A DNA stretch of 42,525 nucleotides from a virus, in IMG/VR virus record IMGVR_UViG_3300036799_000099, positions 1 to 42,525 of that record. One strand, given 5' to 3'. This document shows, piece after piece, positions 598 to 41,320 of this stretch (position 1 is its first letter; each line of letters begins with the position of its first letter). The notes beneath the pieces are model-generated. The model saw only the letters and a list, made by a program, of their open reading frames with translations. It was not told the origin of the DNA and ran no database searches. Made by a program: the position numbers and the translations under genes.

Positions 598-797
598 GGC
601 TATCCCTCATCTCGGTGGGTGTCTATTCGCTGGACGGTACTCCCGGCGGTCGAGACAGACCAGGGCAGTACGGGCGCTCAGATCGCCGGTACGCGGCGGG
701 CGTGCCCGGACACCTGCCGATGGGTGATCGGCCCGCTCCGGCTCTCTCAGCGGCCTAAGACCGCGCGTCTCGTCGTCGCGGTCGTCGGGAAAAGAGA

Positions 798-810
798 GCC
801 CTACTAACCC
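798..810 (+). promoter_or_regulatory. Stoperator-like 13-bp motif, exact copy
   Basis: GCCCTACTAACCC, one of two exact copies of a dispersed motif (the other is at 27347). It is intergenic, upstream of the leftward acidic/GH172-like gene pair. Confidence 0.5.
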
Positions 811-837
811 CTACGAAAAATCGGACATTCAGACAGT

Positions 838-1150
838 GTCCGGGCACGGCCGGGCAATGGCCGGGCACGGCCGGGCAAGCGGCCGGGCAAAAAGTGGCGT
901 TGACCTGCGAATGTCCGGGCAGTCCGGGCATTTTCTTTAAAACTAGTTCTATGTGTAAGTATATGTCACTATATGTAATGCATACTCACAAGTAGTTACA
1001 TATATCGCTACAGAACCCACAATGGGGAGTTGCCCGGCCATCCCGGCCACGATCGCCAGAATCGGCCCCATTTCGTGGCTCTGACCTGCACAAATAAGTA
1101 TGGCCGGGCAAATTTCGTTGCCCGGCCATACCCGGCCCTTTGCCCGGCCA
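838..1150. other. Candidate replication origin with iterons
   Basis: An intergenic stretch with seven direct CCGGGCA copies (starting at 840, 850, 861, 871, 883, 915 and 924), one more at 1104, and inverted TGCCCGG copies at 1031, 1120 and 1141. They flank an AT-rich core at about 931-1010 containing TATATGT and inverted ACATATA. The rest of the genome is very GC-rich, so the core stands out. The helicase and prim-pol genes lie beside it. Direct repeats next to an AT-rich melting zone and replication genes are the classic layout of an iteron origin; which protein binds is unknown. A TGACCTGC motif at 901 and 1082 recurs at 8942. Confidence 0.7.
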
Positions 1151-1206
1151 CGGAGCCTCGCGCGCTCGATAGCGTGTCCGATTCGCGGTTCGTGGAGGAT
1201 GCACGC

Positions 1207-1368
1207 ATGAGCGAACTCAGCGCATGGCTAGTGACCGCCACGCTCGCAGCGTTGACGGTCAGTCACGTAGCCCTATCGATTGCGGTACATCACCTACGGC
1301 GTGCGATCGAGGCGGCGTCTAGCCGTCCAGAGGCTTCCAGGCCGATCGACGAGCAGCGGCATCCTTGA
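1207..1368 (+). CDS. Small single-pass membrane protein
   Basis: A 53-residue protein with one hydrophobic helix at about residues 6-28 (AWLVTATLAALTVSHVALSI) followed by a charged tail (HHLRRAIEAASSRPEASR). GGAGGATGCACGC precedes the ATG at 1207, a good ribosome site at normal spacing. It runs rightward out of the candidate origin and overlaps the end of the helicase gene by about 50 bases in convergent orientation. No family recognised. A small membrane protein beside an origin could be a plasmid maintenance or spread function, but this is inferred from position only. Confidence 0.5.
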   Translation: MSELSAWLVTATLAALTVSHVALSIAVHHLRRAIEAASSRPEASRPIDEQRHP

Positions 1369-2749
1369 GTCTGATCCCCTCATAGGTGGGCACACGGTCA
1401 CCGAACGCGTCTATCGGCTTAGACCTGCGCAGGCTCGTCGCGCCCGGTGCGGCGAACAGCTGTCGGCCGAACGTCGCCGCCGTGCCGACGTGGGCCCGCC
1501 CCTGCTGCCGGCACCAGTCGACCCACTCGTTATAGAGGTCGGCCACCTTGACTGTGGCCTCTGGTTCCATCTGGCAGCGCTCGTCGAGGAACATGCCGAT
1601 CGGGCTCACCGACTCGCGAATCAGCTCGACCGCTTCCTGCGATGAGTCCGGCTCGGTGAACCGCCCGCGCTCGGCCAGCCGGTCGAGGCCATCGAGTGCC
1701 CATCGAAAGATGCCGGCCAGCTCGGCCCGCAGGTCCCGACCGAGGTTGGTGTCCTCTTGCCCGTAGAACGACCTGGTCATGCGCAGCACGAGCAGCCTTC
1801 CGGCGATCGCCGCCGCGGCGTCGGGCAATGAGGGCAGCTCGTTGGACAGCATCATGATTTGCGCTGACAACTGGCCGATCCAGGGATCCTTGTGCTTGCG
1901 GTCGACCGTGATCCGGTCGCCACCGGAGATCATCAGCAAGTGCTCGACGACCTGGCCGACCTCACGCGGCATGCGTGCGTCGGGGATGATCGCCAGCGAT
2001 TTCCCGATCAGCTGTGACAGGCCGAACGGCATGGTCAGGCCGGCCAGTGTCGGCCCGGCTACGTGCGCTTCTCCGGTCAGCGCGGCGATCACGTTCGAGA
2101 TGGTGCCCTTGCCCGAGCGGGTCGGGCCGACGACGAGGAAGATCTTTTGTAGGTCACGGCGTCCGCTCAGGATGTAGCCAACGATCTCCTGCAGGGTGTC
2201 AATGGCCTGCTGATCATCCGGCCAGATCGAGGCCAGGAAGTCCAGCCACCGGGTCGGCTCGGGCGCGTTCGGGTCGTAGCGGAATCCGCACCGGCTGGTA
2301 TTGAAATAGGCCGGCGTCGTCGGCAGCAGCTCGCGCGTGGACAGGTCGACCAAGCCGTTTTCCACGGGTGTCACCCGTCCACTACGACGCTCGTCGAGCC
2401 AGGTGCCGGGCTCGATATCGGCCGGCAGGATCGTGTTCGCCTCAACGGCCTCGATCAATTGTCCGATCGAACCCTTGTTTGGTGCCCACGCCCGCTCTTC
2501 GGTCGACTTGTCTCGACCGTCGACGTGCAGATAGGTGGCGTGCTCGGTGCGCTGATAGAGCTCGGATCGAAGCTCGGCCTCATCGAGCTCACGCCAGAGG
2601 CCATCAGTCCATCGGTGCCACGTGCCACGCCAGCGGCGAAGGGTGAGCCAGCCGCCCCACACCCACTCTGGTTCGAGCTCGCGGGCTACCGCCATCGGCT
2701 GCTTCGGGGAGGGCAGCTGGTCTGGACGGATCGGAAATACGTTAGTCAT
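1319..2749 (-). CDS. D5/P4-type SF3 helicase (primase C-terminal domain family)
   Basis: A 476-residue ATPase expected to unwind the replication origin as a ring. Residues around 150-200 (PENGLVDLSTRE; AYFNTSRCGFRYDP; WLDFLASIWPDDQQAI) are typical of D5/P4-family proteins. The Walker A motif is GPTRSGKGTISN near residue 210, and GDRITVDRKHKD follows about 70 residues later, as in phage and plasmid helicases of this family. The ATG at 2749 overlaps the stop of the prim-pol gene (ATGA), so the two are coupled. The primase domain is on that separate protein rather than fused as in P4 alpha. The gene ends beside the candidate origin. Confidence 0.9.
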   Translation of the reverse strand: MTNVFPIRPDQLPSPKQPMAVARELEPEWVWGGWLTLRRWRGTWHRWTDGLWRELDEAELRSELYQRTEHATYLHVDGRDKSTEERAWAPNKGSIGQLIEAVEANTILPADIEPGTWLDERRSGRVTPVENGLVDLSTRELLPTTPAYFNTSRCGFRYDPNAPEPTRWLDFLASIWPDDQQAIDTLQEIVGYILSGRRDLQKIFLVVGPTRSGKGTISNVIAALTGEAHVAGPTLAGLTMPFGLSQLIGKSLAIIPDARMPREVGQVVEHLLMISGGDRITVDRKHKDPWIGQLSAQIMMLSNELPSLPDAAAAIAGRLLVLRMTRSFYGQEDTNLGRDLRAELAGIFRWALDGLDRLAERGRFTEPDSSQEAVELIRESVSPIGMFLDERCQMEPEATVKVADLYNEWVDWCRQQGRAHVGTAATFGRQLFAAPGATSLRRSKPIDAFGDRVPTYEGIRLKDAAARRSAWKPLDG

Positions 2750-3846
2750 GCCGCACCACCCGCGGGCCGAGGCGAACGAAAGCCACTGTCAATCGCGTAC
2801 CTGACCTCGCCCTCAGGCAGCCCGCAGGCACGGGCCGCCGTGGCCAGCTCGTCGCGCACCACGTGCTCGTCGATCCAGCCGGCGGCGACCATGCCGGCCA
2901 GCCGGGAGGCCGAGCGGAAGGTCTTTCGGTTGCGGCCGGAGTTCGGACTCATGGCGGCGAGCTCGTCGCATGCCGAGCGCAGGGCATTCGCCGCGTACTC
3001 GCCCGGCTTGCTGATTCCGGCCGCCGCGGGCGCGCTCACCGCCGGCACGTCGCGGGGATAGTAGGGCCGTCTCTCCGGCGTGGCATGCCGGTCGTGGCCG
3101 GTGCGTCTGAGCTCGTCGACCAGCCACCCGGGCAGCTCCGCGGGCTCCACCCCGGGCGAGATGCGCCGGTACTGGCCACGCATGGTGGTGTTGCCGGGCA
3201 GCAGCACGAACCCGCCGTAGGCCTTGACGTCGATCTGCCAGCCGAGGCACTGAGGGGACATGGTGCCGTCGGTGCGCAGGCCTCCACTGGAGCCTTTCCA
3301 GGCCTCGACCGCGGTGCGGTAGATCAGGTGCCGGCCACCGGTCGGTGTCTCGACGGCGAGCGTCTCGCCGGTCAGTGCCTCCAGGCTGGTGTTCCCGACT
3401 CGCTCGGCCAGCCACGACAGCACGGCAACGCCGTCCGCTGGCGGTTCGGCCATGGGCTCGTGTCCGGGCAGCGGGTTCGCGGGTGGCAGCCCGCCGTGCC
3501 GGTCGGCGTCGATGGCGATCAGGCCGGAGCGGCCGAGGTGAACGGCCCACGTGGCGCGCGGGTAGTGCGCGGCCCGCCACGCGGTCACCCCGATGTCGTT
3601 GCTCGCGGCATGGACACCGTGGCAGAGCACGGAGCCTTGCCCGCTGGCGAGGCAGGGACAGTCGACGGCCGTGTGGTCGGCCACGCCGGGGCGGCAGTCT
3701 CGGCAGCCACCACGGGGCAGCTTGGCCCATTCGGTCGTGCCGTCACCGAGCGGCAGCACGTGCCAGCGGTAGTGCCGCACGAGCCAGATTGCCGCGCGCG
3801 CGGCAGGAGAAAAGAGCGACGGTTCGGCGCTCTGGTCGGCGGTCAT
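2746..3846 (-). CDS. Bifunctional primase/polymerase (prim-pol)
   Basis: A 366-residue protein of the actinobacterial prim-pol family, expected to lay primers for replication of the element. The N-terminal half carries AARAAIWLVRHYRWHVLPLG, a cysteine- and histidine-rich stretch (CRDCRPG, CPCLASG, LCHGVHAA), DIGVTAWRAAHYP, and the metal-binding IDADRHGG at about residues 112-119. The ATG at 3846 follows GGAAGGACCGACC, a better ribosome site than the in-frame upstream start at 3873. The stop overlaps the helicase start. The same pair occurs in actinobacterial integrative and conjugative elements and in phages of this type. Confidence 0.88.
   Translation of the reverse strand: MTADQSAEPSLFSPAARAAIWLVRHYRWHVLPLGDGTTEWAKLPRGGCRDCRPGVADHTAVDCPCLASGQGSVLCHGVHAASNDIGVTAWRAAHYPRATWAVHLGRSGLIAIDADRHGGLPPANPLPGHEPMAEPPADGVAVLSWLAERVGNTSLEALTGETLAVETPTGGRHLIYRTAVEAWKGSSGGLRTDGTMSPQCLGWQIDVKAYGGFVLLPGNTTMRGQYRRISPGVEPAELPGWLVDELRRTGHDRHATPERRPYYPRDVPAVSAPAAAGISKPGEYAANALRSACDELAAMSPNSGRNRKTFRSASRLAGMVAAGWIDEHVVRDELATAARACGLPEGEVRYAIDSGFRSPRPAGGAA
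3055..3067 (-). promoter_or_regulatory. Stoperator-like motif, one mismatch
   Basis: GGGATAGTAGGGC on the plus strand, so the GCCC-first form reads on the minus strand. It lies within the prim-pol coding region. Confidence 0.35.
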
Positions 3847-3971
3847 GGTCGGTCCTTCCGACCGAGCCGACACGGTGGCGAGGTACTCGCGTACTTATGT
3901 CGCGATCCGCTACGCTAACCGTGCCCACCCGGTACTTAGTCGAGTTCGTGTCGGGGGACTTGTGTGTAAAG

Positions 3972-4578: not shown

Positions 4579-4779
4579 ATGGCTAAGAGTGTGCCTGATC
4601 GGCGCAAAGACAGCGAGAGGTCGGCCGTACGTCGGCAGGCCAGCTCGCATCTTCGCCGTGGTGCTCGTCGCGAGATTCGCCGCTGTGTGGCAGACCTGGT
4701 CGAGCCGGTCGAGGGTCAAGGCGACCTATTCGACTTGCTCGCCGACTCCGCTACCGCAGTCGAGGACGGTGCGGCATGA
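4579..4779 (+). CDS. Small basic/acidic protein, unknown
   Basis: A 66-residue protein: a very basic first half (RRKDSERSAVRRQ; HLRRGARREIRR) and an acidic second half (EPVEGQGDLFDLLADS). The ATG at 4579 follows GGGAGGTG; a GTG nine bases upstream lies inside that ribosome site and is unlikely. Its stop overlaps the ATG of the WhiB-like gene (ATGA). As first gene of the rightward transfer-like operon it could be a DNA-binding accessory protein, but no family is recognised. Confidence 0.6.
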   Translation: MAKSVPDRRKDSERSAVRRQASSHLRRGARREIRRCVADLVEPVEGQGDLFDLLADSATAVEDGAA

Positions 4780-5180
4780 GCACCCTCGACGACTTTCCTC
4801 GCCCGCCCGAGTGGTCGGCCGATGCCGCGTGTGCCGAGGTCGGTGGCGACGGGTTCTTTCCCGAGACTGGCGACGACTATGCCGCCGACGTCGAGGCGGC
4901 CGTGAAGGTCTGCCACGGCTGTCCGGTGATGTTCGCCTGTGCGGCGGCCGCACTGGAGCAGGGCGAGCAGCACGGCGTGTGGGGTGGCCTGGACTTCGGA
5001 TCGCTGGCCGAGTCGACTCCGGTCGCCTTGGGCCGGAAGTTCGATGCCCGCGATGATGCCGAGATCATGCGACTAACCGCGGCCGGTGCGTCCGCCGCCC
5101 GGATCGCCCTGCTCGTCGGTTGCAACGAGCGGCACGTGACCCGGGTCCGGGCCCGCAACCGCGTACAGGAGGCGGCATGA
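4776..5180 (+). CDS. WhiB-like iron-sulfur regulator
   Basis: A 134-residue Wbl protein. Four cysteines, C19 and C46-x2-C49-x5-C55, are positioned to hold a [4Fe-4S] cluster, and the G(V/I)WGG signature follows (GVWGG, about residues 67-71). The C-terminal half (AEIMRLTAAGASAARIALLV, then CNERHVTRVRARNR) resembles an HTH, making the protein longer than most Wbl proteins (about 80-130). Wbl proteins bind sigma factor or DNA, and phage-encoded ones, such as that of mycobacteriophage TM4, can interfere with host cell division and superinfection. It is coupled to its neighbours on both sides by ATGA overlaps. Confidence 0.93.
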   Translation: MSTLDDFPRPPEWSADAACAEVGGDGFFPETGDDYAADVEAAVKVCHGCPVMFACAAAALEQGEQHGVWGGLDFGSLAESTPVALGRKFDARDDAEIMRLTAAGASAARIALLVGCNERHVTRVRARNRVQEAA

Positions 5181-5261: not shown

Positions 5262-6566
5262 GTGATCACGTATTTGACGCAATTGTTTGTGACCGCTCCG
5301 GCGTTGCTGTACACGCTGGCCGCGGTCGCCGCCCTGGCCGCTATCGCCGTCTCGGTGGTAGTGGGGCGCCGTCTGGCCACGGTGGTGCGCCGCATCGGCG
5401 CTGGCCGGGTCGCGTGCTACGGCGTCGCCATGCTGTGCACGGGCTTGTCCATCGACACGAGCTGGAAGTTCTTTACCGAGCGGCTCGGCATCACGAACGT
5501 GTGGGAGCGCGGCGCGCTCTTCGCGATCATCGAGGCCGGTCTCATCTCGTGCGCCATCGTGATGAGTGCCAACATCCGGTCCGGCGGTACGCCCGGGTTC
5601 GCCCGGACGCTTGCCTGGTCGTTGACGGGGTTCGCCGGCTACATGGCGCTCGTCGAGGCGGGTCCGGTCTTGGGCATGGCGCGCGTGGTGCTCGGTCCGA
5701 TTCTCGGCCTGGTCATGCTGCACATGGCGCTCGGTATCGAGGTGCGCGAGATCGCTCCGGCTCGTCGGGGTGCGGTCGCTCAGCTCGCCCGAGAGCTGCA
5801 GGCTCGGGTTATGAGTCGGTTCGGCCTGGCCGACGATGACCGGACAGCAGCGGAGCGGACTCGGCACCGCTGGGCAACGCGTGCGGCACAGCTGGCGTGC
5901 GCGAGTCCGAGCACGGTGCGTCACCACTCGGTGAAGCTGGCGAAGGCGGTCCGGAAGGCCGGGGCCGCTCACGATGCGCAAGCACGCGAGCGGTTGCTGC
6001 GTGAGATCTCGGTGCTGAGGCACGCGACGGCACTGGTGACCTACACCCCGCCGTCGCCGTGGGAATCCCACGGCGTTCCCACGAGCGTTCCCACGAGTTC
6101 CCACGAGACCGTTCCCATTCGTTCCCACGGGATTCCCACGGGCGTTCCCACGGATTCCCACGAGACGACCGACCCGATCGGCCTCACGGCCGTTCCTACC
6201 AGCGCGGTTCCCATTCGTTCCCACGAGCGTTCCCACGAGATTCCCACGAACGGCGTTCCCACGGGCCCCCACTCGTTCCCACGGGATTCCCACGGGCGTT
6301 CCCACGGGATTCCCACGAGTTCCCACGGGGCCGCTCCCACGGATTCCCACGAGTTCCCACGGAATTCGCAGGAGCAAACGCCGGCCGTTCCCACGGAACG
6401 CCGCCGCCGGACGGTCCCTCAGTACGCGGAGGAGGTACGCAGAGTACGCGCGGGTGGCTCCAAGATCTCGCCTCAGGACGTGATCGAGCTGACTCGCTGT
6501 AGCAAGAACACGGCCACCAAGGTCGTGCGCTTGCTGGTCGGCGAAGGCTACATAGCGACGACCTGA
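5262..6566 (+). CDS. DUF2637/Spd-like membrane protein with repeat region and C-terminal HTH
   Basis: A 434-residue protein in three parts. Residues 1-165 contain about four or five hydrophobic helices (LLYTLAAVAALAAIAVSVVV; LFAIIEAGLISCAIVMSANI; ARVVLGPILGLVMLHMAL), like DUF2637 and plasmid-spread membrane proteins of actinobacteria. Residues 165-265 are charged and helical. Residues 268-378 are encoded by a dense array of RTTCCCACG repeats and are rich in SHE, VPT and FPR triplets. Residues 385-434 form a winged-HTH-like end (ISPQDVIELTRCSKNTATKV, then VRLLVGEGYI). The GTG at 5262 follows GAGGAGCTGACCAG. It lies directly before the FtsK/TraB gene, as Spd genes lie beside tra genes. A membrane anchor for DNA is plausible but inferred. 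Confidence 0.8.
   Translation: MITYLTQLFVTAPALLYTLAAVAALAAIAVSVVVGRRLATVVRRIGAGRVACYGVAMLCTGLSIDTSWKFFTERLGITNVWERGALFAIIEAGLISCAIVMSANIRSGGTPGFARTLAWSLTGFAGYMALVEAGPVLGMARVVLGPILGLVMLHMALGIEVREIAPARRGAVAQLARELQARVMSRFGLADDDRTAAERTRHRWATRAAQLACASPSTVRHHSVKLAKAVRKAGAAHDAQARERLLREISVLRHATALVTYTPPSPWESHGVPTSVPTSSHETVPIRSHGIPTGVPTDSHETTDPIGLTAVPTSAVPIRSHERSHEIPTNGVPTGPHSFPRDSHGRSHGIPTSSHGAAPTDSHEFPRNSQEQTPAVPTERRRRTVPQYAEEVRRVRAGGSKISPQDVIELTRCSKNTATKVVRLLVGEGYIATT
6065..6395 (+). repeat. Array of about 24 RTTCCCACG repeats inside a coding region
   Basis: GTTCCCACG or ATTCCCACG recurs about 20 times with a few degenerate copies (GTTCCCATT, GTTCCTACC, GCTCCCACG), mostly 10-13 bp apart. All copies are in one orientation. 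The spacing is not a multiple of three: copies are read as V-P-T, S-H-E and F-P-R in the same protein, so all three frames occur. Selection therefore acts on the DNA motif. It resembles the short-repeat clt sites bound by TraB in Streptomyces plasmids, or an iteron or partition array. Confidence 0.9.
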
Positions 6567-6579
6567 CCCACAAAAAGAA

Positions 6580-6622
6580 CCGAGCGGCGGCAACCGCTGG
6601 AGAGCTAATAGCCGCCGCTCGG
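6580..6622 (+). promoter_or_regulatory. Intergenic hairpin before the TraB-like gene
   Basis: CCGAGCGGCGGC at 6580-6591 pairs perfectly with GCCGCCGCTCGG at 6611-6622. It stands just upstream of a start-associated element. No T-run follows, so processing, attenuation or mRNA stability are more likely than termination. Confidence 0.65.
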
Positions 6623-6630
6623 TCTACTCC

Positions 6631-6643
6631 CACCGATAGGAAG
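6631..6643 (+). promoter_or_regulatory. Start-associated element (CACCGATAGGAAG)
   Basis: It lies 10 bases before the ATG at 6654. It belongs to the family CACCGATAGGAGC seen before several other genes here and includes the ribosome site. Confidence 0.75.
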
Positions 6644-6653
6644 TGGCATCACA

Positions 6654-8876
6654 ATGACACACACATTCGATACCGGGCCAACCGAGCTGGTCGACGACGA
6701 CGGCGACGGCTGGCCGGACACCTCTCACCAGGCGACGAGCGAGATCGTGCCCGCACGATCGGCTGACGTCGTGCCAGCGCAACGGCGTGCGATCGACGTT
6801 TTCCCACGTCGCATCGGCTCGCCCGGCGCCGGCTCGACCGGCACCGGCCCCGTCACTGGTCAGCGGGTTGTACTGGCCGCGTGGCAGGTCGGTGCTGGTC
6901 ACACGGCCTGGGTCAAGCGGGCGCACAGTGCGGCAACGCACGGTGTGATCCGTGAGCAGATCAGTGCCGCCCGCGCGGCGGGTGACTCGGACGCGCTGCA
7001 TGCCGCGCAAACGCTGCTGATCAAGGCCAAGAACGACCGGTCTCGTCGGCTGCGTGAGCTGCCGAAGGCGACACTGGCCGTGCTGCAGACGTCCGGCTGG
7101 GTTCTGGCCGGGCTGCTGGCAGTGCTGCTGGTCGTGATTCCGCTGATAACCCTGATCGGCGCTGGCACTCAGGCTGTCGGATCGTGGTATTCCGGCCTGC
7201 GCAGTGTCGTTACGTTCGGCGTTTCCGCAGGCCAGTTCGTGTTGCCGCTGGTCTTCGGCCCGCTCGGCATCATCGCGCTGGTGCTGCTGTGGTTCGGTGG
7301 CGCCTACGTGGCTGGCAGCAAGACGGCCACGCCGCCAGGCTGGCTAGCTCCGACCGCCGACGTCGGTGACGGCCGGAGCATGATTCCGACCGATTCGTCG
7401 ATCTTGGAAGCCCTGCGCTACCTGGGTATCCCCAAGCTTGACCAGGCCTTTAAGGCTGGCTGGGGGACAACCGGGCACCCAAGCCAGGTGTGGGAGCAGG
7501 GTGTAGCTCGGGACGGCCTCGGCTATCGCTGCCTGATCAGGCTGCCCAAGGGTGTCAACGTCAAGAAGGTCAACGACGCGAAGGATCTGCTGGCACACAA
7601 CCTGGTGCGGATGCCGGCTGAGGTCTGGCCGTCCGAGCGGAAGGACAAGCCGGGTGTTCTTGACCTGTGGATCGCGAACTCGGGTGCGCTGACCGGCCCG
7701 ATTCCCGAGTGGCCGCTGCTGGCCGAGTTGTCGACGGTCACCACGGACTACTTCGCCGGCCTGCCGGTCGGGATCAACATCCGTGGCGACGTGATCAAGG
7801 CGATCCCGTTCCAGTCGAACCTGGCCGCGGCCGGGATCATGGGCTCGGGTAAGTCGTCGCTGGTCATCACGTGGCTGCTGGGCATGCTGCTCGACCCGCT
7901 GGTCGAGGCAGACGTGTTCGTGTGCGCCGAGAACTTCGACTACGAACCCATGCGGCCGCGGTTGCGGCAACTGCGCACGGGCCAGGGCAAGGCGACCATT
8001 CAGGCCATCATGCGCACCCTTCGGGAGGCGTACGAAGAGCTGGAAGTCCGTGGTCAGGCCTTGCGCGAGCACGGTGAGCGGGCCGTGAAGCGCTCGCTGG
8101 CCGAGAAGGACGCCCGGTTGAGGCCGCGCGTGTTCGTGATCGACGAGTGTCAGGCCTTGTTCCTCGACCCGAAGTACGGGGAAGAGGCACAAGACCTGGT
8201 GGTTCTGCTGGAGAACGCGTCGCGCAAGTACGGATACACGATCATCTACCTGACTCCGGAGGCGTCGTCTGCGTCGCTTCCGCGGCGCGTGGTGGCCGTG
8301 ACCAGCCTTAAGGCGTGCTATGCGATCGGTGACCAGACGTCGAACGACTCGATTCTGGGCAGCGGTTCGTACAAGTCCGGCGTGTCGGCCGTGGGTCTGG
8401 AGCCCAAGACCGACGAGGGTCCTGGCGACGTGGGCACCGCGATGACCAGGGGTTTCATGGCTAAGCCCGGTTTGATGCGGACGTTCTACACCAGCGCTGA
8501 GGTAGCCACGTTGGTGACTGAGCGGGCGCTGGAGATCAGGGCGGCCGCGGGCATCGATGGCGAGAAGGTCGAGGACGTCGTCGAGCGCGACTTCTTGGCC
8601 GACTTGTCCGCGTTGCTCGGTGACTTGCCGCGGCTCGGCACCGATGAGATGCGGCAGCGGTTGGCCAGCCTCGACCGTGGTGCTTACGGAAAGTGGTCGG
8701 CTCGGGACTTCGCTGACGCTCTGCGTAAGCACAAGATGCCGACCGGTCGGAAGTCTGACGGGATCATGGTCGTCCGGGCCGACGACCTCGCCGATGCGAT
8801 CGAGGGAGCGGCAGCGGAAGAGGCCGCGAGGCAGGCCGAGATCGACGACTATGACGACGAGTACGACGACGAGTGA
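6654..8876 (+). CDS. FtsK/TraB-type DNA translocase
   Basis: A 740-residue membrane-bound AAA+ motor expected to pump double-stranded DNA. Residues 1-140 are soluble and charged; two membrane segments follow at about 148-170 and 188-221. The motor holds Walker A GIMGSGKSS at 394-402 and Walker B VFVIDECQALF at 493-503. A C-terminal domain (LGTDEMRQRLASLDRGAYGK, then WSARDFADALRKH) could read DNA repeats as the FtsK gamma or TraB C-terminal domain does, and the tail is acidic (DDYDDEYDDE). This architecture matches TraB-type transfer proteins of Streptomyces plasmids more than chromosomal FtsK. Known relatives move plasmid DNA between mycelia or segregate chromosomes. The adjacent repeat array is the natural candidate target; that link is inferred. 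Confidence 0.88.
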   Translation: MTHTFDTGPTELVDDDGDGWPDTSHQATSEIVPARSADVVPAQRRAIDVFPRRIGSPGAGSTGTGPVTGQRVVLAAWQVGAGHTAWVKRAHSAATHGVIREQISAARAAGDSDALHAAQTLLIKAKNDRSRRLRELPKATLAVLQTSGWVLAGLLAVLLVVIPLITLIGAGTQAVGSWYSGLRSVVTFGVSAGQFVLPLVFGPLGIIALVLLWFGGAYVAGSKTATPPGWLAPTADVGDGRSMIPTDSSILEALRYLGIPKLDQAFKAGWGTTGHPSQVWEQGVARDGLGYRCLIRLPKGVNVKKVNDAKDLLAHNLVRMPAEVWPSERKDKPGVLDLWIANSGALTGPIPEWPLLAELSTVTTDYFAGLPVGINIRGDVIKAIPFQSNLAAAGIMGSGKSSLVITWLLGMLLDPLVEADVFVCAENFDYEPMRPRLRQLRTGQGKATIQAIMRTLREAYEELEVRGQALREHGERAVKRSLAEKDARLRPRVFVIDECQALFLDPKYGEEAQDLVVLLENASRKYGYTIIYLTPEASSASLPRRVVAVTSLKACYAIGDQTSNDSILGSGSYKSGVSAVGLEPKTDEGPGDVGTAMTRGFMAKPGLMRTFYTSAEVATLVTERALEIRAAAGIDGEKVEDVVERDFLADLSALLGDLPRLGTDEMRQRLASLDRGAYGKWSARDFADALRKHKMPTGRKSDGIMVVRADDLADAIEGAAAEEAARQAEIDDYDDEYDDE

Positions 8877-11055: not shown

Positions 11056-13241
11056 GTCGCCACCATCCCGAGCAGTTGCACATCACCCGTCGCCGACCAC
11101 TGATCAGCGCCGTTGGTGATGCCCACCAGCCGGACCCCGTACTCACCGGCCGCGAGGTAGGGGTGCCCGTCCACGTGAATCGTGGCCGTGTCGCCGACCT
11201 GGATCGCCTCGACCGGCGGGCTGCCGGTGGACTGTCCGGTGATGCTCCGGCCGTCCATGCGGACGCTGGCCGACCCGCTCACCCGCGGCGTGGCGTGAGT
11301 GGCCAGCGCCCCGTCAACGTAGGACTGCAGTACGGCCGAGCTCGGCTCGCTGCTGTGCGTGGTGTCGGCGACTTGCAGCCATGGCCAGCCGGCATCCGGG
11401 TAGGTGAGGTCGGACCCGTGTGCCCACGCCAGCGCGCCACCCTCGGTGCTGCGCTGGTCTTGGCCCTTGGTGAAGACCTCGAACGCCTGGTCTCCACCGT
11501 CGATGGTCGTTTTGATCGAGGTACAGGCTTGCCCGTAGTCGAACGCCCACGGGTAGCCGAGCTGCCCGAGCCGGCCGTCGGCGACCCGCATGCGCCACCG
11601 GATCACGGTCTGTCTGCTGTCGGCCCACTCCGGCGAGAACTCGATCTCCACCGGGTCGGCCCGCTGGGTCAGCTCACCGAGCCGGGTACCGATGGTGGCC
11701 AGGTCGGCCGCGCTGTAGGTGATCTCGGCCGTGCCGGTCGCGGTGTCCGGCAGCAGCAGCGGCGGCGAGTACGGGCCGGCCGCGTAGTACTGCCAGATCT
11801 GCACGAGCCGGACCGCCACGGATCCCCACGAGAGGCCCTGATTGCCCACGTCGGGCGAGGCGGCACCGAACACGATGTCGCTGGTCGTCGCCGTGATATC
11901 GACCGGCTGGCGTTCGTACAGGGCTAGGGCTTTCTTGCCCATGTAGTCCCACATGGTCACGGTCGTCAGCTGCGCGGTCGCCGGATGCTGCGTGTCGTCG
12001 ACGACGATGCCGTTCAGGATGCCGGCCTGCAGGATGGCCGTGCCGTAGGAGTAGACGAGCGTCCAACGCCAGGGCTCGCGCAGCATTTGCAGCGTGTCGT
12101 CGTCAATGCGTGGCTGCAGCATGACCGTGGCCGAGAGCGATCCGGCGCCGTTGATCACCCGTTGCCAGGTCGGTGGCGTCGCTATCGGCAGCTCGGCCAC
12201 CACGCCCCCGGTGACCGTGTCGGCCAGCAGCAGACGGAACGGTGCGGAGATGCGGGCCCGGGACATGAGCCCGCCCGTGGTGCCGGCCGGCGGCCGGGTC
12301 GCATACCGCGGCAGCGTGGCCGAGGCCGCGGCCAGGGTCAGCGCGAGTGTGCCGGTGCCGATCAGGGTCTCGGTGTCGACCTCGGTGGCCATCATCGGGG
12401 TTAGTGGGGCCGATCCCTGCCCGACCACCCGAGGTGATCCGGTTCTGGTGCTGGCCAGCGTCAAGGTTGTCGAGGATTGCCCGACTACCCGGGGGCTGCC
12501 GGTGCCGGTGCCGGCCAGGCTCACCGCGGCCGTGGCGGCATGAGTGGGCCCGCCGGTCGCACTGGCACCGAGGGTTAGAGCTGCCGAGCCGGTGCCCGTG
12601 AAGCTCGCCCCGCCGGCCGCGCCGACGAGCTCGACGGCGGCGATGCTGTACTTCTGCCCGGTCGGCGCGGACAGCCCAACGGTCTTCGCCCCGGCCGCTC
12701 CGGCGTCCGTCCAGACGGCCGCGTAGATGGTGTACTGACCGGAGACGTAGGCGTAGTCAGTCTCGGTCGCGGCGACGTTGGCTGTTCGCCAGGTGCGCGC
12801 CGCGCCGTCGACTGGATTCCAGTCACCTGAGGCACCCGAGATCGCCGAGTTAGCGGCGGTCGTGGTCAGCGACAGGGACGGGGCGCCGGACGCGTTCGTT
12901 TTCGCGCTCGCCCCGATCGAGGCGACGTTCGAGTACCGGTGGACGCCGATGCCGAAGTTGAAGGCCGATCCGGAGCGTGTCGCGGTCAGCGTGAACGTCT
13001 GCGCACTGCCCGCGGACGCCGTCCAGATGGACAGCCACGCATAGGACGAGACGGCGATGGTCTGCTGCGCCGTGTAGGTCAGCCCGCCCCCGGTCGGCGT
13101 GCCCACGGTCGCCGCGGCATCCGACGTGATGGCGTAGACAACCAGCGTGTCACCAGCGGCGACGGTGACGCTGCAGGTCTTCGGCGACGTCGTGGTGTTC
13201 CACGCGGACGCGTAGTGCGCGACGTAGGTCGGCGCTGGCAT
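11052..13241 (-). CDS. Large tail tip protein: adhesin-like N-terminus fused to Tal-like C-terminus
   Basis: A 729-residue protein in two parts. Residues 1-210 are beta-rich, like a surface lectin or concanavalin-type adhesin (TYVAHYASAWNTTTSPKTCS; SVTVAAGDTLVVYAITS; LSAPTGQKYSIAAVELVG). Residues 210-320 are low-complexity linkers in which TGTGS and RVVGQ-type units repeat (SPRVVGQSSTTLTLASTRTG, then SPRVVGQGSAPLT). Residues 330-729 look like the tail-associated protein of siphophages (PFRLLLADTVTGGVVAELPI; SLSATVMLQPRIDD; QVGDTATIHVDGHPYLAAGE). In other phages the Tal protein is separate and comes directly after Dit. The gene begins ATG at 13241 overlapping the previous stop (TAATG). Attachment to the tail end is well supported; the adhesin role is inferred. 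Confidence 0.8.
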   Translation of the reverse strand: MPAPTYVAHYASAWNTTTSPKTCSVTVAAGDTLVVYAITSDAAATVGTPTGGGLTYTAQQTIAVSSYAWLSIWTASAGSAQTFTLTATRSGSAFNFGIGVHRYSNVASIGASAKTNASGAPSLSLTTTAANSAISGASGDWNPVDGAARTWRTANVAATETDYAYVSGQYTIYAAVWTDAGAAGAKTVGLSAPTGQKYSIAAVELVGAAGGASFTGTGSAALTLGASATGGPTHAATAAVSLAGTGTGSPRVVGQSSTTLTLASTRTGSPRVVGQGSAPLTPMMATEVDTETLIGTGTLALTLAAASATLPRYATRPPAGTTGGLMSRARISAPFRLLLADTVTGGVVAELPIATPPTWQRVINGAGSLSATVMLQPRIDDDTLQMLREPWRWTLVYSYGTAILQAGILNGIVVDDTQHPATAQLTTVTMWDYMGKKALALYERQPVDITATTSDIVFGAASPDVGNQGLSWGSVAVRLVQIWQYYAAGPYSPPLLLPDTATGTAEITYSAADLATIGTRLGELTQRADPVEIEFSPEWADSRQTVIRWRMRVADGRLGQLGYPWAFDYGQACTSIKTTIDGGDQAFEVFTKGQDQRSTEGGALAWAHGSDLTYPDAGWPWLQVADTTHSSEPSSAVLQSYVDGALATHATPRVSGSASVRMDGRSITGQSTGSPPVEAIQVGDTATIHVDGHPYLAAGEYGVRLVGITNGADQWSATGDVQLLGMVAT
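12398..12410 (-). promoter_or_regulatory. Stoperator-like motif, one mismatch
   Basis: GGGTTAGTGGGGC on the plus strand, inside the low-complexity linker of the large tail tip gene. Confidence 0.35.
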
Positions 13242-13579
13242 TAGTCAGTGATGGTGACCGTGATGGCGTAGCTACCGGCGCTGGCGAAGGCCTGGCTCGC
13301 CGACAGCGCGGCCCCGAACGTAAACGTTCCCGCTGTCGCCGCCGACCAGACACCAAAGTGAGTGATGGTCACGCCGGTCGGGACATTGATCGTGACCTGC
13401 GAGCCCGCCTTACTGCCGCTCGCGGCGGCCGCCCAGGTGGTCTGTACCCGGGCATAGGTGCCGCCCGTGACCTCGCTGGCCCCGGTTGTGCCCGGGTCGG
13501 CCGTGTGCAGAGAGATGTAGCTACCGAGCCCGCCGACAGCGTCGAGTGCGGCGTTTCGGCTCGCGACGGTGAATGCCAA
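13241..13579 (-). CDS. Small beta-rich tail protein
   Basis: A 112-residue protein with a conserved opening seen in many phage tail genes (ASRNAALDAVGGLGSYISLH, then TADPGTTGASEVTG) and beta strands after it (VTINVPTGVTITHFGVWSA; SYAITVTITD). Homologous short proteins lie in the minor tail regions of many actinophages, where the fold suggests a virion surface or fibre-tip accessory. The start is TTG at 13579, after GGAGCCGCA. It lies between the collagen-like or fibre gene upstream and the large tip gene downstream. The precise role is unknown. Confidence 0.72.
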   Translation of the reverse strand: MAFTVASRNAALDAVGGLGSYISLHTADPGTTGASEVTGGTYARVQTTWAAAASGSKAGSQVTINVPTGVTITHFGVWSAATAGTFTFGAALSASQAFASAGSYAITVTITD

Positions 13580-13587
13580 TGCGGCTC

Positions 13588-14700
13588 CTAGGCTGGCGTG
13601 ACGCCGATGGTCAGCGGGTTGCGGACGTCGGCAGACCAGCCGACCGAGCCGCCCCCGAGCACGTCAAAGATCAGTCGCACGGTCGAGCTGCCGGTAAAGA
13701 TCGAGCTACCGATCGGCATGATCGGGCACCGGTTGTCGCCGCCCTGCCCGACCAGCGTGACGGCTCCGGCGAAGGGGCCGCTGTTGACCGACACGTAGTA
13801 GTTCATGGTGGTCGGCGAGATGATCGAGGTGATCGTGAAGATCGAGCTGGCCCACACCCGGTAGGGAAAGCCCGGGTCGGGGATGGTCACGGAGATGATC
13901 ACATTGCCGCCCCCGGACACTGTGCCGAATACGTGTGACTGCGCGTCCGGGGTGCCGGGCCATTGGCCGGTGAATGTGGCGCCTTGCGTGCCGCGCCACC
14001 GGCTCTGTGCGGCATCCCAGTAGTCGACCAGCGCCGGGTACGGGGACACGGCCGTGCGGTAGCGCAACTCGCCGTCGATCCGTCCCGGATCGTTGATCGC
14101 GTCACCGGGCAGCATGTGCCGCACGGCGCCGGTCAGGGCCGTGCTCGGCCGCATGTCGGTGATGTTGGCCGAGGTGATCGTGGTGGACCCGGCGTTGATC
14201 CGGACTTGTGCCAGCTGTACGGCGCCGTCCGGCAGCGCGGCCGTGTTCGGCGACGGTGAGGCGGCCGGGGTACCGGCGATCACGTCGGCGATCGGGCCGT
14301 GTGTCGCATCGGTGGTGATCGAGGCACGGTCACCGACCCACGTATAGACAATGTCGATGCGCGGGTTGGTGGGATTCGAGGTGGTCGGAACGACGGTGGC
14401 GGTCGACTCGGACCAGCCGACGTAGGGACCTTGTCCGGCTCGCTCGCAGACGTAGGGACCGGCGAGCACGTCGAGTGCCCACGCGGCCGTGGTTTGCTGC
14501 TGCACACGCAGGCTCGTGCAGCCGGCCGAGTCCCAATTGTGCGGCAGCACGCCGTTGCGCGCGGCCAATGGATTCGCGCTCTTGACATCGGGCAGCAGCA
14601 GCCCAGCGATCCATTTGCGGATATCCCGGCCGCTGTTTTGCCCGGTGACGCCGTCGACCGCGGTGAGCGGCACGGCATCGGTCAGTGCTACAGGTGCCAA
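13588..14700 (-). CDS. Minor tail (baseplate or fibre) protein
   Basis: A 370-residue protein. The first 200 residues match the N-terminal domain common in actinophage minor tail proteins: GRDIRKWIAGLLLPD, NPLAARNGVLPHNWDS, LRVQQQTTAAWALDVLAGPY, PTNPRIDIVYTWVGD and PDGAVQLAQVRINAG. This domain attaches fibres to the tail tip. The rest is beta-rich (NVIISVTIPDPGFPYRVWAS; RLIFDVLGGGSVGW), consistent with an exposed tip. The start is TTG at 14700, close behind AGGGGAGAGG. It follows the Dit-like gene, as expected for a siphophage tail tip operon. Confidence 0.8.
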   Translation of the reverse strand: MAPVALTDAVPLTAVDGVTGQNSGRDIRKWIAGLLLPDVKSANPLAARNGVLPHNWDSAGCTSLRVQQQTTAAWALDVLAGPYVCERAGQGPYVGWSESTATVVPTTSNPTNPRIDIVYTWVGDRASITTDATHGPIADVIAGTPAASPSPNTAALPDGAVQLAQVRINAGSTTITSANITDMRPSTALTGAVRHMLPGDAINDPGRIDGELRYRTAVSPYPALVDYWDAAQSRWRGTQGATFTGQWPGTPDAQSHVFGTVSGGGNVIISVTIPDPGFPYRVWASSIFTITSIISPTTMNYYVSVNSGPFAGAVTLVGQGGDNRCPIMPIGSSIFTGSSTVRLIFDVLGGGSVGWSADVRNPLTIGVTPA

Positions 14701-14709
14701 CCTCTCCCC

Positions 14710-15600
14710 TTACGTGTAGGTCGTTCGCCAGCTGGCGGTCAGTGCCGCGGCGTCGGATTGCACGGCGCCGACGAACCGGATCCCCATGGTTTGACCGGGG
14801 GGGACGGTGAACCAGTCGGCCCTGGTCAGATAAGCGCGGCGGCCCGCGCCGTTGAGCGTGACTTCGCCTGTGCCGGTGTTGATAGTGAGGACGTCGTTCG
14901 CGGCCAGGTTGCCGTCGTAGGTGATCCACCCACCGGCCGCGCCGATCGAGGGACCCTCGACGGGGCCGTGGATGGTCACTATGACGTCGGCCGGTGCGGT
15001 GCCGGCCAGGTTGTCGACCGTGACGATGCCGGTGGATACCGGACTGCCCCACTGCACACCGGTAGCCGGCGTACTCGGGCCGTTCCAGGCCACGCCGCTG
15101 ACGGTGCTAGTAGGGCCATTCCAGGCGACCCCGCCGGTGCCGGATTGCGCCATCGGCGTGGAGACCGATTGCAGCGCTACACCGAGCAGCCGCGGGTCGG
15201 GCGCGGTCAGCGACATCGACCAGTCCGCGGCCCGCGCCCCGATCGGCTTGAACAGCACTTCCGAACTGCGCTGAACGAGGGTGAACAGCGACCCGGCCGC
15301 GTCATCGACCTGCAGCTCGGACAGCGCGAACGGGTCGAGGCACATGGCGTTGAGCTGCCGCCGCGCGTCGACAAACGTGGCGTCATCGGTGGCGGCGACC
15401 CGGCCGGTCAGCGTGACGGTGCGGACGTCCTGCCAGGCCGGCCCGAAGTACGACCCGGGGGCGAACGGGCGGCTGGTGTAGCCCGTGCGTGGCTTGGGTG
15501 AGTCGTACCAGCCGGTGATCTCCTCGACCGAGCGCCACAGCGTGCCGTCGTCGTAGGGGTCGAGGGTCACGCCATCGAGCGTGATCTGCGGGTCAGGCAT
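14710..15600 (-). CDS. Distal tail protein (Dit-like)
   Basis: A 296-residue protein directly after the tape measure gene, the usual Dit place. It has the family opening (ITLDGVTLDPYDDGTLWRSV), a beta barrel region (YFGPAWQDVRTVTLTGRVAA), the helix that follows (FVDARRQLNAMCLDPFALSE) and the marker AADWSMSLTAPDPRLLGVAL, found in most Dit and minor tail proteins of this class. It ends with a jelly-roll-like domain (VIVTIHGPVEGPSI; LTRADWFTVPPGQTMGIRFV). In siphophages Dit is a hexameric hub joining the tail tube to the tip. The ATG at 15600 follows AGGTGATGA. Confidence 0.85.
   Translation of the reverse strand: MPDPQITLDGVTLDPYDDGTLWRSVEEITGWYDSPKPRTGYTSRPFAPGSYFGPAWQDVRTVTLTGRVAATDDATFVDARRQLNAMCLDPFALSELQVDDAAGSLFTLVQRSSEVLFKPIGARAADWSMSLTAPDPRLLGVALQSVSTPMAQSGTGGVAWNGPTSTVSGVAWNGPSTPATGVQWGSPVSTGIVTVDNLAGTAPADVIVTIHGPVEGPSIGAAGGWITYDGNLAANDVLTINTGTGEVTLNGAGRRAYLTRADWFTVPPGQTMGIRFVGAVQSDAAALTASWRTTYT
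15104..15116 (-). promoter_or_regulatory. Stoperator-like motif, two mismatches
   Basis: GTGCTAGTAGGGC on the plus strand, inside the Dit-like gene. Confidence 0.25.
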
Positions 15601-33457: not shown

Positions 33458-34135
33458 ATGACCATGCGACGACAGCGGCTTAGACCGCGCATCCTCGACG
33501 CCTTCTCGGGCGCCGGGGGCGCCGGAATGGGCTATCACCAAGCCGGCTTCGAGGTAGTCGGGGTGGATATCGCCCCGCAACCCAACTACCCGTTCGAGTT
33601 CCATCAGGGTGACGCCGTCGAGTTCATCCGGAGACACGGCCACGAGTTCGATCTGATCCACGCCTCTCCGCCGTGCCAGTCGTATTCGGCACTGCGGGCG
33701 CTGAGCCCGACCAAGATCTACCCGGATCTCATCACCGAGACACGGGCCGTCCTGATCGAGTCGGGCTTGCCGTTCGTGATCGAAAACGTCATGTCGGCAC
33801 CGCTGCACAAGCCGACCTCGATCACGCTCTGCGCTGACAATATGGGCCTGCGCACGATCCGGCACCGTCGTTTCGAGTACGGCGGCGGGCTCATCTTGGA
33901 TCAGCCTCCACACCAGGCGCACCGAGCCCGGACGGCCACCTCTCGGCGCCGTGAGCGTTGGGCCCAAGGCTGGCATGTCTCGATCACTGGCGACGTCGGG
34001 GTCTATGTCGGCACAGAGGCCATGGGCATCGACTGGATGAGTGGGAACGAGCTCTGTGAGGCGATCCCACCGGCCTTCACGCGCTACATCGGCCAGCTGA
34101 TGCTGGCTCATCTCGACTCGGCTGCAGCCGCCTAA
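33458..34135 (+). CDS. Compact C5-cytosine DNA methyltransferase
   Basis: A 225-residue enzyme expected to methylate cytosine in DNA. Motif I (LDAFSGAGGAGMGYHQAGF), the catalytic motif IV (HASPPCQSYSALR, Cys about residue 73) and motif VI (PFVIENVMSAPL) are clear, then LRTIRHRRFEYGGG and the late motif PPAFTRYIGQLML. It is shorter than typical Dcm-type enzymes (about 330-430), as in other actinophages, with a small target-recognition region. No nuclease gene lies beside it, so it is probably an orphan enzyme for protecting phage DNA from host restriction. The target is unknown. Confidence 0.92.
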   Translation: MTMRRQRLRPRILDAFSGAGGAGMGYHQAGFEVVGVDIAPQPNYPFEFHQGDAVEFIRRHGHEFDLIHASPPCQSYSALRALSPTKIYPDLITETRAVLIESGLPFVIENVMSAPLHKPTSITLCADNMGLRTIRHRRFEYGGGLILDQPPHQAHRARTATSRRRERWAQGWHVSITGDVGVYVGTEAMGIDWMSGNELCEAIPPAFTRYIGQLMLAHLDSAAAA

Positions 34136-38224: not shown

Positions 38225-38541
38225 GTGCGCGGCCAGCCGAGCTGCTGGGCGACCCAGGCCTTCATCTTGGCCCGGTGGATCGGCGAGGCCGGTGTGCCAC
38301 CGGCCGGCAGCGCGGGCCGGGAAGCGCGACGAGCGGCACGGATCCGGTCGGTGACGACCCCGGGCATGATGTAGGCGGTTTGCTCGGCATAGTGCCCGTG
38401 CACGGCGTTGCAGGCCTCATCGAAGGTCCACCGGCCGCGCTGAGCGGACTCGGTCCAAGCCGAGACCATGCCGCGGCCCACCTTGCGGTTGTCGTAGCTG
38501 GTCACCACGGCGAGCAGCTCTTTCACTTCGTTCTCGGTCAT
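38221..38541 (-). CDS. Small replication-associated protein, possible helicase-loader partner
   Basis: A 106-residue protein: ENEVKELLAVVTSYDNRKVG, RWTFDEACNAVHGHYAEQTA, then YIMPGVVTDRIRAARRA. This pattern (helical, ending in MP-x-V-x-D-x-IR) is common in actinobacterial phages next to O-like initiators. It may help load the host helicase, by analogy with lambda P, but the evidence is positional. It is coupled to the initiator gene by an ATGA overlap. Confidence 0.62.
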   Translation of the reverse strand: MTENEVKELLAVVTSYDNRKVGRGMVSAWTESAQRGRWTFDEACNAVHGHYAEQTAYIMPGVVTDRIRAARRASRPALPAGGTPASPIHRAKMKAWVAQQLGWPRT

Positions 38542-39431
38542 GCGATCTCACCCGGGGCATCCCGGTCGGATCGGGCTTCACGCAGTAGTCGGGCGATCGT
38601 TTGATCAGCGGCGTTTGCGAACTGTTCGGGCTCACGATCGGGCCCGCGCCGTCGACACCACTCGGCCTCCCGGCGCATCCATCGCCGCCACTCGGCCGAC
38701 CAGTCGGCGACGGTCACCCGTGGTCGGGCCCGGTAGTAGTCGATGAACTTCGCCGTGGCCGAGCGCACGTCGACGGTCGGCACTTGCGCCGCGGCCCATG
38801 CCCAGTCCGCTTCGGTCAGCGTCCAGTCGGGCGGCAGCGAATGTTCTCTCGGGATCGGGCTACTAGCGGTATCCGGGGGCGGGGTCTTTTTGAGTTCGGT
38901 CCAATCCGCGGGGATGTCGAGCGAGGCCTCGCGCGCGCGCCCGCGCGCGGCCCGTGCTTCTACGTCAGTAGAAGTACTACTCGGGGACGGGGACGGGGTT
39001 CCGTTTTGCTTGCGTTTTGCTTTAGCACTTGCTTCGTCGTTTGCTTCACCGCGTGCGGACTCGATCCGGCGCACGGAAGCGGCCTTCCGGCGGCGAACCT
39101 GGCCGCTGACCAGGCCTCCCTTTCGTCCGGCCTCCGCTCGCTTGCGTCGCAACTCGCGTTGAGCGTCGGACGGTGGTTGGTAATCAGCCCAGTCGTGGAA
39201 CACGAAGCCGCCACGCTCGTCGTCTCGATGCCACAAGCCGGCTTCAAGCAAAGCGGAAGCACTTGCTTCGGAGTCCTCACAGAGCCGCGGCAGCACCTGG
39301 TCAGGCACGAAGCCATCGGTTAAATGAGCGCATGACCAGGCGCCGGCCAGCGTCCAGAGGCCTATCGCTGCAGGTCCGGCGGCAACCATCTTCGGGTGCT
39401 GAACTACCGAGTCGTCGACCTTGAACCACAT
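38538..39431 (-). CDS. O-like replication initiator
   Basis: A 297-residue protein. Residues 1-85 form a winged-helix-like domain (WFKVDDSVVQHPKMVAAGPA; AIGLWTLAGAWSCAHLTDGF; GGFVFHDWADYQPPSDAQRE), the opening typical of phage initiators. A low-complexity basic middle (KRAEAGRKGGLVSGQVRRRK) is encoded by an AAGCAA-repeat DNA segment. The C-terminal domain (DWTLTEADWAWAAAQVP; SATAKFIDYYRAR; WSAEWRRWMRREAEWCRRR) is common in these proteins and may contact the replication machinery. Like lambda O, the gene contains candidate binding repeats. It lies in the recombination operon. Confidence 0.82.
   Translation of the reverse strand: MWFKVDDSVVQHPKMVAAGPAAIGLWTLAGAWSCAHLTDGFVPDQVLPRLCEDSEASASALLEAGLWHRDDERGGFVFHDWADYQPPSDAQRELRRKRAEAGRKGGLVSGQVRRRKAASVRRIESARGEANDEASAKAKRKQNGTPSPSPSSTSTDVEARAARGRAREASLDIPADWTELKKTPPPDTASSPIPREHSLPPDWTLTEADWAWAAAQVPTVDVRSATAKFIDYYRARPRVTVADWSAEWRRWMRREAEWCRRRGPDREPEQFANAADQTIARLLREARSDRDAPGEIA
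39003..39050 (-). repeat. AAGCAA-type iteron array in the initiator gene
   Basis: The minus strand reads GAAGCAAACGACGAAGCAAG and continues with TGCTAAAGCAAAACGCAAGC. About five AAGCAA units recur in 48 bases, locally AT-richer than its surroundings and inside the initiator coding region, as in the lambda origin. Confidence 0.65.
39256..39269. repeat. GAAGCA-NN-TGCTTC palindrome, copy 1
   Basis: GAAGCACTTGCTTC inside the initiator gene, encoding EASA-type residues with codons (AGT, GCA) uncommon here. Confidence 0.7.
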
Positions 39432-39434
39432 GCT

Positions 39435-40574: not shown

Positions 40575-41320
40575 GCCGCCTCCCTTCGCGGCGGGTCGAG
40601 TGGCTCGCCGACCAGGTCACGGCCGATCTCGCCGAACTCGGCCACTTGCTGGCAGTAGAGGAAATACCGGTGCTCGGCCCGGCCGGCCTCGACCGGCACG
40701 AGTGCCGCACCCTCAGCGGTCACGTGCACGACGCCGCACCGGTCGACCTCCGGCAGCTCGTCCCCGTACCGGTAGGCGGCCAGCTGCAGGGCGGTCTCGG
40801 GGAACACCCCTGACTGGGTCGTCTTGATATCGAGGAGCCAGCGCTCGATGCCGTGCTCGGTGGTCAGGTCGGCGATCAGATCGAGCGTGCCGGCGTAGCC
40901 GTGCTCATAGGAGACGGCCATGGCCTCGACCAGCACGGGCTGTACCTGCCAGGCATCGAGGAAATCGCGATAGGCCTCGACATGCCCGGCCAGCTCGTCG
41001 GGTACCTCGACCTCGCTGCCACTGACGAGCTGCTCGGCAAGCCGGTGGACCTCCGTGCCCCGTTTGGCCGCGGCATCCCGGCTGGCGAATCGGCTGCGCT
41101 GCAGGTCACGCAGCCTCTTAGAGGGGGAGAGCGTAGCGAGCTCGTCCCAATTGTCGAGTGCGTATTCAGCGGTGGTGTTGGCTGCCCAGGCGATCAACGC
41201 TGGCTTGGGTAGCCCGTCATTCAAGATCGTTGTCACGCCGGGCACGCGGCGTCCGTCCGCATCGACGTATCGATGCCCGCGGCCGGCCTTGCGACGCTGG
41301 ACTGGTGGTGTCGGTTTCAC
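40571..41320 (-). CDS. Cas4/RecB-like PD-(D/E)XK exonuclease
   Basis: A 249-residue nuclease expected to resect DNA ends for the RecT protein. An early helix-turn region (GVTTILNDGLPKPALIAWAA) is typical of the family, then the active site: HRLAEQLVSG, YEHGYAGTLDLIADL with the metal-binding Asp, RWLLDIKTTQSG with Asp-x-Lys, and QLAAYRYGDEL with the Gln-x3-Tyr motif. No CxxC iron-sulfur cysteine cluster of Cas4 is seen, so it is closer to phage RecB-like nucleases. It starts with GTG at 41320, overlapping the previous stop (GTGA), and its stop overlaps the RecT start. Confidence 0.9.
   Translation of the reverse strand: MKPTPPVQRRKAGRGHRYVDADGRRVPGVTTILNDGLPKPALIAWAANTTAEYALDNWDELATLSPSKRLRDLQRSRFASRDAAAKRGTEVHRLAEQLVSGSEVEVPDELAGHVEAYRDFLDAWQVQPVLVEAMAVSYEHGYAGTLDLIADLTTEHGIERWLLDIKTTQSGVFPETALQLAAYRYGDELPEVDRCGVVHVTAEGAALVPVEAGRAEHRYFLYCQQVAEFGEIGRDLVGEPLDPPRREAA

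Follow-up and report, generated by a model that had tools for sequence, protein, structure and literature searches.

The closest described relatives of the locus treated here belong to conjugative plasmids of actinobacteria and to phages that exist as plasmids. The locus occupies positions 5262–8876 of the IMG/VR virus record IMGVR_UViG_3300036799_000099, which was analysed over its full length of 42 525 nucleotides (the window). It comprises a gene for a predicted membrane protein with a C-terminal helix–turn–helix (HTH) domain (P0001, the anchor), an array of RTTCCCACG repeats inside that gene and a gene for a TraB/FtsK-type translocase (P0002).

P0002 is a homologue of the TraB protein of plasmid pSVH1, with predicted membrane helices, an FtsK motor and a predicted C-terminal winged helix, and at both loci a DNA-binding membrane protein (predicted in the window) is encoded upstream and short direct repeats lie nearby. 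The membrane protein of pSVH1, SpdB2, binds DNA and interacts with TraB, and spdB2 of SLP2 stabilises its plasmid (PMC4170104). The two loci differ in that SpdB2 is not homologous to the anchor and in that the pSVH1 repeats follow traB instead of lying inside the membrane-protein gene. The word and the number also differ: four copies of GACCCGGA (pSVH1 8158–8233) compare with about 25 copies in the window.

Streptomyces phage ZL12 (pZL12, NC_013420) is a phage genome in plasmid form, as the window probably is too, and has an FtsK-like tra gene. Its gp073 is remotely homologous to the anchor (hhalign 98.6%, E = 7.7e-16); gp072 comes next and then the FtsK-like gene. Transfer of pZL12 reportedly depends on tra together with two neighbouring genes (PMC3583192), and we infer from its position that gp073 is among the genes required. 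Unlike the window, pZL12 has no array in the gp073 gene, possesses ParA/ParB and carries an extra gene between the anchor homologue and the translocase.

The nearest plasmid TraB is that of Saccharopolyspora pCM32, where a membrane-protein gene precedes traB and WhiB lies upstream, as in the window; TraB is followed there by a bifunctional DNA primase/polymerase (Prim-Pol). The preceding gene is, however, of another family and without an array, the sole array found in pCM32 lying 3' of the helicase gene. The Pseudonocardia phage-like plasmids pPaSha2 and NZ_CP053567 resemble the window in joining phage genes and TraB/FtsK on one circular element, but they encode a DUF2637 membrane protein instead of the anchor and have no DNA-level array. 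NZ_CP053567 (27 kb) and a second Pseudonocardia plasmid, CP052773 (42 kb), each with phage genes, a DUF2637 gene and TraB, are apparently further phage-plasmids or satellites with a transfer pump. TraB on phage-type elements and phage-borne transfer are thus already known (pZL12; also pPaSha2 and NZ_CP053567).

In phage lambda the binding sites of the O protein lie inside its own gene. The origin iterons are located within this coding sequence (PMC7157519). Lambda O is a soluble replication initiator, whereas the anchor is predicted to be membrane-bound and the window has another origin-like region.

The array, its host gene and the translocase

Nineteen exact copies of RTTCCCACG (the window's word, TTCCCACG) were found on the + strand between 6075 and 6395, and a single inverted copy (6058–6066) opens the array as a palindrome (6058–6072). 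With the degenerate units of one or two mismatches at 6064, 6111, 6192, 6207, 6333 and 6364 the array totals about 25 copies, close to the 24 or so that a preliminary description of the locus had placed in this gene. The spacing is mostly 10–12 bp, approximately one helical turn. Elsewhere in the window, outside the anchor gene, exact TTCCCACG recurs only once, at 6801, and dinucleotide shuffling of the whole window gave a mean of 0.8 and a maximum of 3 copies of RTTCCCACG. The exact copies are distributed over the three reading frames (9/8/2) and encode different peptides (VPT, SHE/SHG and FPR). In 5000 synonymous-codon shuffles of the anchor gene the copies averaged 1.8 and never exceeded 7, and codon shuffling never gave more than 2. 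Because copies stand in all three frames and far exceed the synonymous-shuffle counts, the repeat is maintained at the DNA level and not at the peptide level.

In an AlphaFold2 model of the anchor (41 relatives) long helices at residues 13–163 form the membrane part, followed by a cytoplasmic bundle (171–260), a disordered linker (about 263–378) and a confident HTH (385–432). The model agrees with the preliminary description of N-terminal membrane helices and a C-terminal HTH, and the array DNA codes for exactly the predicted disordered linker. What adjoins traB is a predicted integral membrane protein with a DNA-binding part, the latter suggested by the HTH. No family in Pfam, NCBIfam or PHROG matched the anchor. 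Foldseek against the PDB gave no whole-protein match, only HTH fragments with E above 1; one viral protein (I4AZH8) was returned with E = 1e-4 and poor superposition, and the fold weakly resembled that of a phage DUF2637 protein (E = 1.0).

Single-protein scans of IMG/VR with P0001 or P0002 gave no match; relatives of the anchor in this database were found only with an alignment-based search. In all, anchor relatives are distributed over at least 80 IMG/VR contigs, 57 genome contigs, for the most part from Lentzea, Amycolatopsis and Mycobacterium, and some Pseudonocardia, Prauserella, Mycobacterium and Streptomyces plasmids. A terminase is present in 25 of the 50 family records tested (window included). 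Among annotated phages no TraB relative was found, and no anchor relative except that of pZL12 (E = 2). The strongly conserved core, also present in the window, comprises T66, R83, E91, R141, G145, P146, H154, G158 and G188 and usually ends in SPW, with a variable linker and HTH; most Lentzea and Amycolatopsis genome copies stop at SPW, without the C-terminal HTH or an array. Four plasmid members from Mycobacterium and Kitasatospora (L012, L013, L108 and L109) have ParA genes within about 3 kb.

Arrays were sought in the 83 members whose linker measures 150 nt or more, as an iterated 8-mer with p ≤ 0.01 against synonymous shuffles; this stricter test was used in place of codon shuffling, which overstates arrays in peptide-repeat genes. 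A significant array in the linker was obtained for 37 of the 83 members, in more than one frame for 32 of the 37. Other long open frames of the same loci, used as controls, gave 5 of 176. The members are related, so the 37 are not independent events, and the better count is that of unrelated words, about ten. At least ten different words were found, among them TTCCCACG (window), CGTACCCG, TGTCCCGG and TGTCGCCC; further lineage words are CTGCCAGC, CGCGAACC, CGGATGCG and GCGGAACC. The array is accordingly a frequent but not universal trait of this membrane-HTH gene family. The similarity of the words follows that of the HTH domains when the membrane core is controlled for (partial rank r = 0.33, reached by 0 of 2000 permutations).

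Two mycobacterial members (L147 and L157) carry an array of CGCGCACA in the linker in three frames, a further independent word. Some linkers with a positive result in codon shuffling, for instance DTDTDT linkers such as that of L040, are compatible with peptide repeats, and were not counted. The repeats in the DUF2637 gene of S. virginiae were likewise rejected: all share a single frame with spacings that are multiples of 21 nt, and so represent a coiled-coil peptide repeat. A scan of IMG/VR for three copies of TTCCCACG returned eight contigs with neither the anchor nor the translocase on them, so that this word alone is uninformative.

The translocase P0002 gave tblastn matches to the TraB proteins of pCM32 (40% identity, E = 6e-77), pPaSha2 and pSVH1 (E = 4e-11). 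FtsK structures were matched with E = 1.4e-19 by sequence profile and 1.2e-14 by fold, and the model superposes on FtsK motor domains. Two N-terminal membrane stretches are predicted, with low confidence at residues 169–242. Homology, the modelled motor fold and the Walker motifs mark P0002 as a genuine TraB-family translocase, and its place directly after the anchor gene, its two membrane segments and its intact Walker motifs are as first described. In the 80 IMG/VR family loci a TraB profile match was obtained for 11; about a dozen more family loci have weaker FtsK/HerA-like ATPases downstream. In one locus (L082) a large open reading frame downstream of the anchor gene (11515–14898) contains an FtsK gamma domain (E = 3.9e-19). 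In chromosomal FtsK the gamma domain reads 8 bp polar sequences.

Possible roles of the array

The most probable reading, to which we give an even chance, is that the anchor's HTH recognises the array within its own coding sequence and so holds the DNA at the membrane, where TraB can transfer it. Many membrane-anchored copies would gather on the array through their C-terminal HTH, and the phage DNA, in an extrachromosomal state, would be fixed in this way to the cytoplasmic membrane. TraB would be loaded at this tether and would pump double-stranded DNA through the septum or the envelope, so that the DNA would spread through the mycelium or reach neighbouring cells; where relatives lack TraB, the anchor–array pair would act as a membrane tether alone. 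By analogy, the mode of action would resemble that of the SpdB2–TraB–clt systems of Streptomyces plasmids and of the conjugative plasmid-phage pZL12. The reading is favoured because the array is kept at the DNA level in three frames, in-gene arrays occur across the family and their words covary with the HTH; because the predicted linker disorder coincides with the array and P0002 combines TraB homology, a motor fold and a predicted C-terminal domain; and because of the arrangement of gp073 and the FtsK-like gene in pZL12, the properties of SpdB2 and the lack in the window of an integrase, which most sister phages have.

Several observations weigh against this reading. The membrane domain of the anchor gave hhalign probabilities below 4% with SpdB2 of pSVH1 and with two DUF2637 proteins. 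No significant array (p ≤ 0.01) was found in 46 of the 83 linker-bearing relatives or in the pZL12 homologue, so the array is not essential to the family. The covariation of word and HTH may come partly from co-inheritance, since linker and HTH are neighbours. The origin iterons of pWTY27 have the same word as the array (TTCCCAC/GTGGGAAC; PMC3583192). Finally, 33 of the 37 significant arrays are without a TraB profile match in their locus. As many array-bearing relatives are of this kind, the basic role of the array need not be transfer.

The preliminary description had treated array, HTH protein and TraB as one unit. That this unit is obligatory is not supported: the 33 arrays just mentioned stand without TraB, and close relatives of the translocase have no array in the neighbouring gene (pCM32, Kibdelosporangium L110 and Actinophytocola L113), an observation that the description itself had named as refuting; in L113 TraB comes directly after an anchor gene that carries none. 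Because arrays occur mostly without TraB and the nearest TraB relatives lack an array, the array goes with the anchor in the sequences compared, and TraB is an optional partner.

It is possible, if somewhat doubtful, that these genes represent a broader class of DNA tethers that are self-contained and work without ParA. A membrane-anchored HTH protein and the array that it binds, located in the DNA of its disordered linker, would share one gene, with a private word in each lineage, and would diversify jointly. Such tethers would serve the segregation or membrane loading of phage-plasmids and would in some lineages be coupled to TraB for conjugative spread. Segregation and transfer systems normally keep the DNA site outside the gene of its binder; here the protein and its presumed site form one cassette. 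The family is uncharacterised; its members number dozens on actinobacterial virus contigs and occur on several plasmids too, and the word differs by lineage. The arrays across the relatives suggest that phage DNA is widely tied to the membrane, for transfer or inheritance, by a mechanism not yet described. The earlier suggestion of an undescribed system may stand for one part: in the part of the literature covered no description of in-gene, lineage-specific arrays in a membrane-HTH family was found, and these appear undescribed. It falls for phage-borne transfer, known from pZL12. If the binding is true, the family would offer ready-made HTH–site pairs and a function for a conserved unnamed membrane protein, and phage spread by both virions and conjugation would become directly testable.

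The strongest rival, since most arrays occur without TraB, is ParA-independent segregation, which we regard as possible but on the unlikely side. The array would be a centromere in the gene of its own membrane-anchored binder, the low-copy phage-plasmid would be held at the membrane and shared between daughter compartments, and TraB would serve only to cross the septum. The dense, helically spaced direct repeats would suit a centromere, as would the stabilising effect of spdB2 in SLP2 (PMC4170104). No ParA (AAA_31) match was found in the window (ParM and TubZ were not searched for), ParA is present in only 6 of 45 family records, and some plasmid members of the family lie near ParA genes (Mycobacterium and Kitasatospora). 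Against segregation, a tyrosine integrase is encoded in at least 26 of the 50 virus records with a family member, and no plasmid partition is needed while a phage is integrated; in the window, moreover, TraB adjoins the anchor gene.

A role as clt, in which TraB would recognise the array with its C-terminal winged helix as it does the 8 bp repeats of pSVH1, the position in the upstream gene being incidental, is unlikely. Repeats of clt type of 7–9 bp are known (those of pSVH1 directly after traB, and the clt of pWTY27, which lies partly inside traA; PMC3583192), and P0002 has a predicted C-terminal winged-helix domain. The same gene, however, carries arrays in many relatives without TraB, and the close TraB relatives in pCM32, L110 and L113 lack an array at this place.

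A replication origin, with the array as its iterons as in the lambda O gene, is still less probable. The word shared with the pWTY27 origin iterons would favour it, the more so as RepB of pWTY27 is also a primase/polymerase (PMC3583192). The reading is weakened by a second repeat region, at 697–1152, whose CCGGGCA iterons flank an AT-rich stretch (930–1030, 33% G+C) directly 3' of the P4-type primase and apart from the TTCCCACG array. Iterons are found at the same place in the primase relatives S. virginiae plasmid NZ_CP108186 and virus contig L251, and in the less closely related replicons pCM32 and NBC_00562 they likewise stand 3' of the primase. Iterons, an AT-rich stretch and a replication gene thus occur together at 697–1152 and not at the 6 kb array, where no AT-rich stretch (67% G+C at 6–7 kb) and no origin mark in the GC skew were found. 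The region at 697–1152 is, from its sequence, likely to be the plasmid replication origin of the phage, which would make the array a second cis element.

That the repeats only reflect a repetitive protein sequence, or form a cluster of autoregulatory operators, without a role in DNA movement is very improbable. A peptide repeat would fit the array in some relatives (L040), and DUF2637 genes mimic arrays through their coiled-coil and heptad repeats, but the window copies stand in three frames, encode different peptides and go far beyond synonymous shuffles, and more than 20 sites exceed the need of an operator.

The phage genome and its plasmid block

The features of the window are listed in Table 1. 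It is a complete virus record, as first described for a siphophage, with genes for the large terminase, portal, maturation protease, major capsid, tape measure, minor tail and lysis proteins and with a direct terminal repeat. The block at 0.7–8.9 kb, consisting of a P4-type replicon with its own origin-like iterons, WhiB, the anchor with its array and TraB, is an actinobacterial plasmid module on this siphophage genome.

Table 1. Positions of the features in the window.
Feature	Position	Strand	Remarks
Direct terminal repeat	1–127 = 42399–42525		Exact match of 127 bases; closed genome (circular or circularly permuted)
Origin-like region, CCGGGCA iterons	697–1152		8 copies of one orientation and 4 of the opposite one, flanking an AT-rich stretch
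P4-family primase/helicase (D5_N, DUF5906), plasmid-type replication protein	1319–2749	-	
Bifunctional DNA primase/polymerase (Prim-Pol)	2746–3873	-	
WhiB-type regulator, C-terminal HTH	4776–5180	+	Upstream of the anchor gene, same direction
Membrane-HTH anchor protein P0001	5262–6566	+	434 residues, 4–5 membrane helices
RTTCCCACG array in linker coding sequence	6058–6395	+	19 exact direct copies, 1 inverted first copy, about 6 degenerate copies
C-terminal HTH coding region (residues 385–432)	6414–6557	+	AlphaFold2 model
TraB/FtsK-type double-stranded DNA translocase P0002	6654–8876	+	740 residues, starts 87 bp past the anchor gene
Walker A, GIMGSGKS	7833–7856	+	
Walker B, VFVIDE	8130–8147	+	
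Predicted C-terminal winged-helix-like domain (residues 647–712)	8592–8789	+	AlphaFold2 model

Neither a tyrosine nor a serine recombinase (integrase) was found in the window, so that virion genes and a plasmid replicon occur together without an integrase. Among the sister phages with a related portal (n = 18) a tyrosine or serine recombinase is present in 15, and none has the anchor or TraB. Since the sister phages lack both proteins and mostly have integrases, the window is, judged by its gene content, a phage-plasmid. The simplest reading is that the phage traded integration for the plasmid block, in which case it would persist outside the chromosome.

A second replication set at 38538–41320 consists of a replication initiation protein (phrog_2447), RecT and an exonuclease; the phage therefore owns lytic replication genes besides the plasmid-type primase. 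A phage DNA methyltransferase gene (phrog_363) lies at 33458–34135 on the + strand among minus-strand genes. A DUF2961 protein (E = 4.6e-18) is encoded at 41897–42499 and runs on across the circular junction. Glycoside hydrolases of family GH172 belong to DUF2961, so the target of this protein may be the arabinan-containing host cell wall.

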